DNA from: Halomonas sp. KAO
GTDB lineage: Bacteria; Pseudomonadota; Gammaproteobacteria; Pseudomonadales; Halomonadaceae
DNA length: 64,000 bases
NCBI RefSeq assembly: GCF_015595025.1
Contig: NZ_JADNRL010000019.1
Coordinates: 679,521 to 743,520, forward strand
Reading direction: 5' to 3'
Shown one piece after another: positions 47,988 through 60,315 of this stretch. How positions within the stretch are numbered: position 1 is the first letter of the stretch; every line of letters starts with the position of its first letter. The notes under the pieces were generated by a model. The model had not been told where the DNA came from, did no database searches, and saw only the letters and a program-made list of their open reading frames with translations. The position numbers and the translations under genes are program-made.

Positions 47988-48905
47988 ATGGCGGACATAG
48001 CGGGTGCCCTGGGGCCCCTGTTCCTGCTAATCCTGCTGGGCAGCGTGCTGGGCTGGCTGCGCCAGCCGGGTGCCGACTTCTGGCCACAGCTGGAGCGACT
48101 GATCTACTTCCTGCTGTTCCCCGCCATGCTGGTGGCGACCCTGGCCACCGCGGATGTCAGCCAGGTGCCGGTGACCCGTGTGGCGATCGCCCTGCTGGGC
48201 CCCATGGGCGCCTTCGCCATCGTGCTATGGCGGCTGCGTGGCTGGCTGGGCATGCAGGCCGCGGCCTTCACCTCGGCCTTCCAGGGGGCGCTGCGCTTCA
48301 ACACCTATGTAGGGGTGGCCGGCGCCGCGGCACTGCACGGTCTCCCGGGAGCCACGGTAGCCGCGGTGGCCGTGGCGCTGATGGTCCCGGTGGTCAATGT
48401 CCTCTGTGTCTCCAGCTTTATCGCCGCCGGTACCCTGGGGCGCGGCAGCCTCGCCAAGAGCCTGGCGGCCCTGGGCCGCAACCCTCTTATCCTGGCCTGC
48501 CTGGTCGGCATCGGGCTCAATATCGGCGGCATCGGCCTGCCGGGGTGGAGCGAAGCCACGGTGGAACTGCTGGGGCGTGCCGCCCTGCCTTTGGGACTGG
48601 TGGCGGTGGGCGTGGCCCTGCGTCCCGCCGCCCTGGTACGCCTCGATCGTGGAATCTGGGCAAGTCACCTGGTGAAGCTGGCGCTGATGCCGGCACTGGC
48701 ACTGGCACTGGCACTGCTGCTGGGGCTCGACCCGGTGAGTCGCGATGTGGTGCTGCTGTTCGCCGCGCTACCCACCGCCACCTCGGCCTATATCCTGGCC
48801 CGCCAGCTGGGCGGGGATGCCGAGATGATGGCCGCCGTGATCACCGGCCAGACGCTGCTGGCCATGGCGACCCTGCCACTGTGGCTGCGTATGGCGGGAA
48901 CCTGA
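47988..48905 (+). CDS. AEC (auxin efflux carrier) family transporter
   Basis: Inner-membrane carrier of the AEC family, whose bacterial members export or exchange malate, malonate and similar compounds. The 305-residue protein has about ten helices in two inverted halves; FQGALRFNTYVGVAGAAALHG and PLGLVAVGVALRP are typical. AAGGAG precedes the ATG at 47988. Four perfect copies of GGCACT near the 3' end encode an Ala-Leu run, so the length of one helix could vary by slippage in steps of two residues. Substrate is unknown. Confidence 0.85.
   Translation: MADIAGALGPLFLLILLGSVLGWLRQPGADFWPQLERLIYFLLFPAMLVATLATADVSQVPVTRVAIALLGPMGAFAIVLWRLRGWLGMQAAAFTSAFQGALRFNTYVGVAGAAALHGLPGATVAAVAVALMVPVVNVLCVSSFIAAGTLGRGSLAKSLAALGRNPLILACLVGIGLNIGGIGLPGWSEATVELLGRAALPLGLVAVGVALRPAALVRLDRGIWASHLVKLALMPALALALALLLGLDPVSRDVVLLFAALPTATSAYILARQLGGDAEMMAAVITGQTLLAMATLPLWLRMAGT
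48692..48715 (+). repeat. four tandem copies of GGCACT inside the AEC gene
   Basis: Perfect hexanucleotide repeat, 4 copies, in frame and encoding alternating Ala and Leu within a membrane helix. Copy-number change would not shift the frame. Confidence 0.85.
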
Positions 48906-48925
48906 AATGAGCCATTAATAAAAAG

Positions 48926-48960
48926 CGTTCGCATTTGTGTTGACGACACAAACGCGAACG
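48926..48960. promoter_or_regulatory. inverted repeat overlapping a promoter, candidate operator
   Basis: Arms 48926-48940 (CGTTCGCATTTGTGT) and 48946-48960 (ACACAAACGCGAACG) match at 14 of 15 positions around a five-base spacer. The repeat covers the -35 box and most of the spacer of the promoter listed next, the usual place for a repressor site. Seen directly; the binding protein is unknown. It could also serve as a weak terminator for the AEC gene, though the tail is not T-rich. Confidence 0.55.
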
Positions 48961-48968
48961 ATTACTCT
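48940..48968 (+). promoter_or_regulatory. sigma-70-type promoter for a candidate small RNA
   Basis: TTGACG (48940-48945) and TACTCT (48963-48968) are separated by exactly 17 bases. The -35 matches consensus at five of six positions. No protein-coding gene follows on this strand before a strong terminator about 100 bases on. Confidence 0.5.
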
Positions 48969-48974
48969 TTGATT

Positions 48975-49089
48975 GGCGGCGTTGATGAGGCGTCGCCACC
49001 AGGCAGGGCCCGCCAGTCTCCTGGCCTGGTTTCTCCCTCTCATTGCTAGACACGGTCTTGCGCCACCCTCCTCGAGGGTGGTTTTTTTT
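48975..49089 (+). ncRNA. candidate free-standing small RNA
   Basis: About 115 nt between a predicted promoter and a strong terminator, with no open frame that looks coding. The predicted RNA opens with a seven-bp stem (48975-48981 with 48991-48997, one G-U pair), continues with a second hairpin (48998-49004 with 49024-49030, extended inside by AGG/CCT), has an unpaired pyrimidine-rich stretch (TTTCTCCCTCTCATTGC) and ends in the terminator hairpin. That plan is typical of Hfq-type trans-acting small RNAs. I do not recognise it as any named RNA. The end abuts the convergent hemN stop. Confidence 0.45.
49063..49089 (+). terminator. strong rho-independent terminator of the candidate small RNA
   Basis: Eight-bp stem (49063-49070 with 49074-49081), three-base loop and a run of eight T. 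The T run exists only on the plus strand, so it does not serve hemN. Confidence 0.88.
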
Positions 49090-49091
49090 GT

Positions 49092-50477
49092 TCACACCGT
49101 GCGCGAGTAGCGTCCCGTGCTATGAGCCAGGTAGGCATCGAAGGCCATGGCGGCATTGCGCATCATCAGCCGCCCGGCAGGGAGCAGCTCGATCTCGTTA
49201 TCGCGGATCGCCAGCAGACCATCATCGGCCATCTCCCGAAGCTCCTCCAGGGCGTCGGCGAAATAGTCACGGAAGACGATGCCGTGCTTGGCCTCGATGG
49301 CGGCGAAGTCGATGCGGTTATGGCACATCAGGGCATTGATCACGTCGCGACGCAGGCGATCATCGTCGCTGAGCCGATAGCCCCGGAACACCGCGAGACG
49401 CCCCTCCTGCAGGCGGTGCTGATACTGGGCGGTCTCCTTGACGTTCTGGCTGTAGGTATCGCCTACCTTGCCGATGGAGGTGATGCCCAGGCCGATCATG
49501 TCGCAGTCGGCATGGGTGGAGTAGCCCTGGAAGTTGCGCTGCAGGGTGCCGTTCTCCCGGGCCAGGGTCAGCTCGTCATCGGGCAGGGCGAAGTGATCCA
49601 TGCCGATATAGACGTAGCCGGCCTCGGTAAGCCGTCGAATGGTCAGCTCCAGCAGTTCCAGCTTGCGCTCCGGAGGCGGCATGTCCTCGGGGCGTATCAG
49701 CCGCTGCGCCTTGAACAGCTCCGGCAGATGCGCGTAGCTGTAGGTGGCGATCCGGTCCGGGCGCAGCGCGATGATCTTGTCCAGGGTGGTATCGAAACTG
49801 GCTACCGTCTGCAGCGGCAGGCCATAGATCAGATCAACGCTGATCGACTGGAAGCCTGCCTGGCGAGCGGCATGCACCAGGGAGACGACATCCTCCTCGC
49901 TCTGCACCCGATTGACCGCCTTCTGCACGTCGGGATCGAAGTCCTGTACCCCGAAGCTCAGGCGATTGAAACCCAGCGCATGGAGCTCGTGAATCTGCTC
50001 GGGGGTCACCGTGCGTGGATCCACCTCCAGCGAGAACTCGCGCTCCTCGGGCGGCGCGAAGTGGAAGGCGGCATCCAGGCTCGCCATCAGCTCGCCGAGC
50101 TGGTCATTGCTCAGGTAGGTCGGCGTACCGCCCCCCAGATGCAGCTGGGTCATGCGTCGGGTCTCGTCGAACAGCGCCCCCTGCACCCGGATCTCCTGCT
50201 GCAGCCAGGCCAGATATTCCGCCGCACGCTCGGTGTTATGGGTGATGATCTTGTTGCAGGCGCAGTAGTAGCAGAGGCTCTTGCAGAACGGAATATGCAC
50301 ATAGACCGACAGCGGCTTGGGCACGGTGGCACCATTGCTGCGCTCGGCGGCGGCACGATAGTCATCCTCGGCGAAGGCCGCGTGAAACTGCGGCGCCGTG
50401 GGATAGGAGGTATAGCGCGGGCCGGGACGATCGTATTTCTCGACCAGGGGACGATTGAAGAGCTGATGGTCTTGCAT
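49092..50477 (-). CDS. hemN: oxygen-independent coproporphyrinogen III dehydrogenase
   Basis: Radical-SAM enzyme that converts coproporphyrinogen III to protoporphyrinogen IX without oxygen. The 461-residue protein has the extended HemN cluster motif HIPFCKSLCYYCACNK, the YTSYPTAPQF N-terminal segment, LHLGGGTPTYL and the C-terminal RNFQGYSTHADCDMIG region that separates true HemN from HemW. The start is the ATG ending at 50477. An FNR/ANR-type site lies 104 bases upstream, consistent with anaerobic induction. It complements the hemCDXY operon at 4-9 kb. Confidence 0.96.
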   Translation of the reverse strand: MQDHQLFNRPLVEKYDRPGPRYTSYPTAPQFHAAFAEDDYRAAAERSNGATVPKPLSVYVHIPFCKSLCYYCACNKIITHNTERAAEYLAWLQQEIRVQGALFDETRRMTQLHLGGGTPTYLSNDQLGELMASLDAAFHFAPPEEREFSLEVDPRTVTPEQIHELHALGFNRLSFGVQDFDPDVQKAVNRVQSEEDVVSLVHAARQAGFQSISVDLIYGLPLQTVASFDTTLDKIIALRPDRIATYSYAHLPELFKAQRLIRPEDMPPPERKLELLELTIRRLTEAGYVYIGMDHFALPDDELTLARENGTLQRNFQGYSTHADCDMIGLGITSIGKVGDTYSQNVKETAQYQHRLQEGRLAVFRGYRLSDDDRLRRDVINALMCHNRIDFAAIEAKHGIVFRDYFADALEELREMADDGLLAIRDNEIELLPAGRLMMRNAAMAFDAYLAHSTGRYSRTV

Positions 50478-50580: not shown

Positions 50581-50594
50581 TTGACCCTGATCAA
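50581..50594 (-). promoter_or_regulatory. FNR/ANR-type binding site upstream of hemN
   Basis: On the plus strand TTGAC-CCTG-ATCAA matches the palindromic consensus TTGAT-N4-ATCAA at nine of ten positions. It lies 104 bases before the hemN start. ANR control of hemN is known in Pseudomonas; here it is predicted. Confidence 0.6.
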
Positions 50595-60238: not shown

Positions 60239-60315
60239 TGGCGCGCCCGGCAGGATTCGAACCTGCGACCTTTGGCTTCGGAGGCCAACACTCTATCCAA
60301 CTGAGCTACGGGCGC
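60239..60315 (-). tRNA. tRNA-Arg(CCG)
   Basis: Complete cloverleaf of 77 nt on the minus strand: seven-bp acceptor stem GCGCCCG/CGGGCGC, D arm with GCTCAGTTGGATAGAGT, anticodon stem TTGGC/GCCAA with loop CTCCGAA giving anticodon CCG, T arm GCAGG-TTCGAAT-CCTGC, discriminator G and an encoded CCA. It reads the arginine codon CGG. A terminator hairpin follows. Confidence 0.97.

Follow-up and report, generated by a model that had tools for sequence, protein, structure and literature searches.

A probable small-RNA gene of Halomonas appears to belong to a divergent Halomonadaceae branch of PrrF

Between a plus-strand gene that we take to encode an AEC-type permease (47988-48905) and a convergent minus-strand gene that is presumably hemN (49092-50477; named so in the sequence-only reading of this DNA), a 64,000-nucleotide stretch of Halomonas sp. 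KAO (hereafter the window) holds a short segment in which promoter-like elements, hairpins and a terminator follow one another closely. The sequence-only reading took this segment for an undescribed, free-standing regulatory RNA. We asked whether it is a small-RNA gene and, if so, to which kind of regulator it belongs.

The anatomy of the segment is that of an independent transcription unit. As the earlier reading had it, a -35 element (TTGACG, 48940-48945) is set 17 bases from a -10 element (TACTCT, 48963-48968), both on the plus strand and read directly from the sequence. Almost every one of 30 genus loci has TTGAC, with L016 deviating, and the -10 element aligns with TTACTCT or TTATCTT in relatives. 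TACTCT agrees with TATAAT at three of six positions, and a consensus scan reported the terminator and no promoter at 48940-48968. Judging from the sequence and the genus alignments, the predicted plus-strand sRNA would span 48975-49089 and measure ~115 nt; its start is placed from the -10 element and the first hairpin, to within about 3 nt, and the length follows from that placement. Hairpin P1 (48975-48997, +) has the stem GGCGGCG/CGTCGCC and the loop UUGAUGAGG at 48982-48990, and hairpin P2 (48999-49029, +; CCAGGCAGG...CCTGGCCTGG, loop word CGCCAG) is seen when the segment is folded alone. The pyrimidine-rich putative target-pairing core UUUCUCCCUCUCAUUGCUAGACACGGUCUUG (49030-49060, +) follows. 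The earlier reading was right about two hairpins and a pyrimidine-rich strand but not about their order, since P1 and P2 are adjacent and the strand lies 3´ of both. Scan and fold both place an intrinsic terminator at 49062-49089 (+). Its eight T (49082-49089) were as described, though the scan gave nine pairs with a loop of three (49062-49082) in place of the eight-bp stem, and each genus locus has a terminator hairpin, of changed sequence. Two 5´ hairpins, a core and an intrinsic terminator within an inferred length of ~115 nt are the architecture of PrrF. At gathering cut-offs, the sole Rfam match in the whole window was a tRNA gene (60242-60315, -), RyhB was absent from the Rfam matches to the window, and a search of PLSDB plasmids gave no match.

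Folding and base-pair changes were examined next to this anatomy. The predicted fold of 48960-49095 was better than those of 200/200 dinucleotide shuffles (z -3.44). In the lowest-energy fold of the window sequence alone, longer-range pairing takes the place of P2; when P2 is folded in isolation, a hairpin appears in 31/31 genus sequences, with z below -1 against mononucleotide shuffles in all 31 (mean z -2.64). In an alignment of 31 transcripts (A2), 95.4% of the cells of P1 are paired, four of its seven pairs have changed on both sides, and its loop UUGAUGAG is invariant in 31/31 rows; the three outer pairs of P2 are 83.7% paired. For these ten pairs (seven of P1 and three of P2), the percentage paired, the number of both-side changes and the covariation score were each reached by 0/500 shuffles, and two of the five pairing measures were not above shuffles (145/500 and 98/500 reached the observed value). 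In the terminator and inner P2 the arms are displaced by the sequence alignment, which rules out a count of individual pairs there. The core is only moderately unpaired in the predicted ensemble, with a mean of 0.52 versus 0.33 in the 5´ part. We also noted that the P2 loop word, CGCCAG or UGCCAG, is nearly constant while the P2 stem varies, and that many sister-genus copies have UGUCAGG.

The segment is kept across the genus. A DNA search gave matches in 35/58 genomes, comprising 35/37 of the window's genus (its own genome included) and 0/21 from other families; the completeness of the two genus genomes with no DNA match is 79% (G002) and 85% (G025). In an alignment of 30 loci (A1), the core is near-invariant, the P1 loop is constant and the -35 region is conserved, so that promoter elements, P1, core and terminator all recur. 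A search of the genome collection for the exact core pattern gave 104 stretches, each with Halomonas, Vreelandella, Billgrantia or Halovibrio variabilis in its title. The comparison that the sequence-only reading had proposed, of promoter, stems and terminator in related genomes, thus showed retention beyond chance across the genus, and the covariance search that it had suggested was also positive: a model built from genus loci only, the window sequence among them (R2; it matches the window at 48972-49094), matched 262/275 Halomonadaceae genomes at E of 0.001 or less. The window genome has one R2 match, and many relatives have two to five, often close together. Grouped PrrF-like RNAs, at two to five matches per genome, occur in several genera, at L043, L044, L076 and other loci. 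We conclude that this segment very probably encodes a small RNA.

A comparison with Rfam, also suggested earlier, pointed to the kind of RNA, with a qualification. The PrrF model, RF00444, aligns in its entirety with 48940-49090, but at 30.2 bits against a cut-off of 90 (E 0.0016 in a 251-base search), and at genome scale it does not match the window's own genome. Weak Rfam matches to anti-hemB, a beta-proteobacterial toxic sRNA, suhB and a piece of human lncRNA were rejected as all far under their cut-offs; the first three fall on the core-terminator or terminator part. Across Halomonadaceae, RF00444 matched 168/275 genomes in 23/24 genera at E of 0.1 or less, and every listed match spans model positions 1-150. 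The best of them, in sister genera, reached 75.1 bits (E 1.1e-12), and none of the 275 genomes passed the cut-off. None of 14 control genomes matched. Across the order, 61/390 genomes matched at E of 0.01 or less, and the 17 over the cut-off all belong to one family (f21), which we take to be Pseudomonadaceae because it alone passes. Matches at E of 0.01 or less occur in 13 families of the order, some of them near the limit.

The reciprocal search led back to the same loci. R2 matched 17/17 of the f21 loci scoring above the PrrF cut-off, at E between 6e-6 and 0.02, aligning with core plus terminator only in 8 of them; none of 30 SOD/SDH control loci matched at E of 1 or less, and there were four off-site matches at E 0.2-0.65. 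Similarity is thus significant in both directions through intermediates, from RF00444 to the sister genera and from R2 to f21. The core of the window's genus aligns with the core UAUCUCCUCAUCAGGCUAAUCACGGUUUU of loci over the PrrF cut-off; the sister-genus core reads UCUCCUCAUCAAGCUAGUCACGGUCUUU, with boxes such as AATGATAATGATTATC, and that of the f21 loci UCUCCUCAUCAGGCUAAUCACGGUUUU (L076 and L078, which had no pattern match, were left out of the comparison of cores). By these comparisons of sequence, the window RNA is a divergent homologue of PrrF; since it misses the RF00444 cut-off, we call it a homologue only and not an Rfam-level member. The description "undescribed" therefore holds for the Halomonadaceae branch, in which 0/275 genomes exceed the Rfam cut-off, and not for the kind: a distant PrrF relative missed by the curated library is a new branch, not a new kind of regulator.

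Very probably, the window RNA is an sRNA of the PrrF type that would spare iron: made from its own promoter, it would be induced when iron is short, be bound by Hfq and act on mRNAs through its core. Iron-loaded Fur would repress the single-copy gene, and iron shortage would lift Fur and allow the ~115-nt RNA to be made; Hfq would bind and stabilize it. The core, UCUCC..CUCAU..GCUAG(U/A)CACGGU, would pair with mRNAs of iron-containing proteins at their ribosome-binding regions, whereby translation would be blocked and iron spared. The sequences themselves establish the anatomy of the gene, its conservation, its homology to PrrF, Fur-box-like promoters in the lineage, complementarity to sodB leaders in relatives and an hfq gene, whereas transcription, the iron response, binding of Fur and Hfq, and repression are what we infer. 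The earlier reading had assigned the locus the plan of Hfq-dependent trans-acting sRNAs, and the plan matches, with both the eight-T tail and an hfq gene found in the window genome, but it is that of a known type, PrrF, rather than of an unknown kind.

With respect to Fur, the window genome carries Fur-family genes, and an inverted repeat surrounds the -35 element (48926-48960), with facing half-boxes GTTCGCATTT upstream and AAACGCGAAC downstream. These halves align with the Fur-box-like halves TGAGAAT/ATTCTCA in relatives, and several columns of the repeat are constant in the genus. Scored with a 14-letter Fur word from the literature, the mean best match was 11.8 of 14 in f21 loci, 12.0 in other families, 10.9 (7 to 13) in sister genera and 9.4 in the window's genus. 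The best match in the window itself is 8/14, equalled by 6/30 windows of its locus, and control by Fur would therefore follow from the lineage, not from the window sequence. That the promoter palindrome is conserved as a hairpin was rejected, as it showed no covariation beyond shuffles. On the minus strand, the repeat at 48926-48960 together with a T run scores as terminator-like, facing hemN; the corresponding A run beside the promoter repeat is present in genus loci although hemN is mostly absent there.

Complementarity to likely targets was found in relatives of the window genome. Genes of the sodB type (start MAFELPALPY or alike) we presume to encode Fe-SOD. The test covered 12 of 30 SOD loci, the others being set aside because they resemble SodA, come from outside the genus, lack a clear start or belong to G022, and it used a local complementarity score adopted after duplex energies had given little signal in GC-rich DNA. 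In these 12 genus genomes, sodB leaders are complementary to the core of the same genome around the Shine-Dalgarno region, ranking in the top 5% of same-genome windows in 9/12 and the top 6% in 11/12; the exception is G007 (rank 81 of 489 windows). Combined, the ranks give a Fisher chi-square of 88 with 24 degrees of freedom, a value to be read with the genomes being related and the per-genome ranks hence not independent. Shuffled cores did as well at most 32 times in 500 in 10/12 genomes, and 84 and 100 times in the other two. For G022, handled apart from the 12 and with its second copy (L308) left out of the pairing, the duplex of its own core with the sodB leader was predicted at -31.4 kcal/mol. 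For sdhC, where 18 of 30 SDH loci were used for complementarity and 21 for duplex energy, the start ranked in the top 3% of the window background in 17/17 relatives, at a site that overlaps conserved codons. When duplex energies were compared with those of shuffled cores, just 3/12 sodB pairs reached 3/300 or fewer and 0/21 sdhC pairs reached 5%. The sodB complementarity in relatives is in keeping with repression of iron-protein mRNAs in the manner of PrrF. In the window genome, sdhC complementarity was ordinary (118/2552 windows as good; duplex energy -26.3 versus a background mean of -21.8 and a 5% point of -28.3), as was complementarity to the leaders of acnA, acnB, sodA, catalase and hemN; no Fe-type sodB was found there, the single SOD match being SodA-like.

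These last results, with the weak Fur box, bear on whether the homologue is decaying or rewired in the window species and has lost its iron switch, which we consider unlikely, though it is the best-surviving of the alternatives. Two further observations favor it. At core positions 49049-49051 the window, L186 (H. icarae) and L241 read GACACGGT where the other aligned genus copies read GTCACGGT, giving GACACGG for GUCACGG, which by sequence is a change in the putative seed within one small clade. In addition, the fur gene of the window's own genome (C24:634150-634514, -; locus L295), ~45 kb upstream of the window, reads in two frames, broken within a G run. However, fur is whole in 8/8 relatives examined, L241 and L186 included, so the break would be a strain-level mutation or a base-call error in the G run. 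Moreover, the RNA is 114/115 identical in L241, its nearest kin (permease end 290/300, hemN end 216/226), and 111/115 in L186 (permease end 282/300); its conservation equals or exceeds that of the permease end, and with copies this near-identical it is not decaying fast. Against L002 the RNA is 105/117 identical, with 265/300 at both the permease end and the hemN end. Over four close relatives, conservation of the RNA is about level with that of neighboring coding DNA, not above it.

A quite improbable alternative is that an unrelated Hfq-type sRNA, with other triggers and targets, converged on the PrrF layout of a C-rich, anti-Shine-Dalgarno core behind a Fur-like promoter. C/U-rich cores that pair with Shine-Dalgarno sequences recur in unrelated sRNAs, and the window copy by itself reaches 30 bits where the cut-off demands 90. 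The sister genera bridge this gap, however, with matches of up to 75 bits, sibling copies and a core near that of the over-cut-off loci, and the return of all 17 of those loci by R2 likewise argues against convergence.

Slightly less probable still is that the permease mRNA ends here, with the segment as its 3´ untranslated region and terminator, at most giving rise to a processed 3´ UTR-derived RNA. The permease gene does lie within 1.5 kb upstream in 29/30 genus loci and in 95/104 of the named stretches, in counts that cover 1.5 kb, or less where a contig ends, and genus loci picked for the RNA. But conserved promoter elements stand between the permease stop codon and the RNA, and the permease is within that distance in only 7/20 sister-genus loci (absent in 13) and in 0/17 of the over-cut-off f21 loci. 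A link to hemN was rejected, as hemN is within 1.5 kb in only 4/30 genus loci, 0/20 sister-genus loci, 0/17 f21 loci and 3/104 named stretches. Since the neighbors change between loci, the RNA seems to be an independent gene, beside which hemN lies by accident. In the window, as had been stated, the next plus-strand gene is ~1.6 kb on and hemN is convergent; the hemN stop codon is only a few bases away from the T run. The claim of a free-standing regulatory RNA has good support, with recurrent promoter, P1, core and terminator and no constant neighbor in permease or hemN. Upstream of hemN, at 50581-50594, we noted TTGACCCTGATCAA, in our reading a good FNR/ANR-type box, which would fit an anaerobic role. 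Finally, a dual-function RNA encoding a small peptide from the ATG of the P1 loop is barely credible: an ATG or GTG is mostly retained in the loop, but the reading frame is not retained among copies, being as short as 6 codons in some and reaching the 200-codon ceiling of the check in others, and no Shine-Dalgarno sequence lies in the few nucleotides before the ATG, so the small-ORF reading was rejected.

Returning to the PrrF-type RNA, we tentatively raise one elaboration, doubtful as it is: the PrrF of Halomonas, Vreelandella and Billgrantia may have gained a built-in gate, a pairing of P1 loop and core that would keep the seed covered up to the moment when Hfq or a target releases it. Here the P1 loop, constant as (U)(G/A)AUGAG, would contact the core word CUCAUU, either as a pseudoknot or as a loop-to-core contact between two RNAs. 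The loop word AUGAG is complementary to CUCAU in the core (-5.2 kcal/mol for the window's word pair), and the window P1 loop also complements, at every base, the sister-genus core word CUCAUCAA. Such a match is not unusual by chance (by our estimate, between about one in eight and one in four), which leaves the gate as a conjecture only.

Judged by Rfam and the literature searched, what is new is the Halomonadaceae branch of PrrF, the kind being already known. The main iron-sparing sRNA of pseudomonads is thereby extended to a salt-loving family in which the curated library is blind (0/275), and R2 is a model able to find the family's copies (262/275). Matches under the threshold in 13 families make the evolution of core and targets testable. 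Vreelandella records carry a native PrrF relative, and we take Vreelandella to be likely kin of Halomonas bluephagenesis. P. aeruginosa PrrF1 has reportedly been imported into H. bluephagenesis as a synthetic tool, named in one of the papers the "PrrF1-2-HfqPa system" (PMC12164125, PMC13101641, PMC13414033); a native relative could cross-talk with, or replace, this imported scaffold. In open-licence PubMed Central, the retrieved passages that join PrrF with Halomonas concern this tool or else use the two words apart, and PrrF together with Halomonadaceae gave no report. The retrieved portions of that literature on Halomonas sRNAs, or on PrrF, ArrF and Azotobacter, likewise describe no native Halomonas PrrF. 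RyhB/PrrF-like systems of cheese-ripening microbes are called understudied in a review of iron in cheese that lists Halomonas nigrificans (PMC12096840), and a Vreelandella nigrificans record (L184) carries the RNA.

Among known systems, the closest are PrrF1 and PrrF2 of Pseudomonas, which are 116 and 114 nt and lie in tandem in P. aeruginosa (PMC2851614). The likeness covers length, the order of P1, P2, core and terminator, the core words UCUCC..CUCA..GCUA.UCACGGU, a Fur-box-like promoter element within the lineage, multiple copies in many relatives and, in relatives of the window genome, complementarity to the starts of sodB and sdhC. In contrast to PrrF, Halomonas-family copies score 30-75 bits against the cut-off of 90, the core of Halomonas, Vreelandella and Billgrantia reads CUCAUUGCUAG versus CUCAUCAGGCUAA in loci over the cut-off, the window branch has its own P1 loop (UUGAUGAG) and a GC-rich terminator of another sequence, and the window genome has a single copy. 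ArrF of Azotobacter vinelandii is cited as an iron-repressed PrrF homologue acting on sodB (PMC2851614). RyhB of enterobacteria and NrrF (PMC2851614, PMC4211561), and likewise BrrF and HrrF, are Fur-repressed iron-sparing sRNAs alike in function, and PrrF and RyhB are reported to share no sequence homology (PMC4211561).
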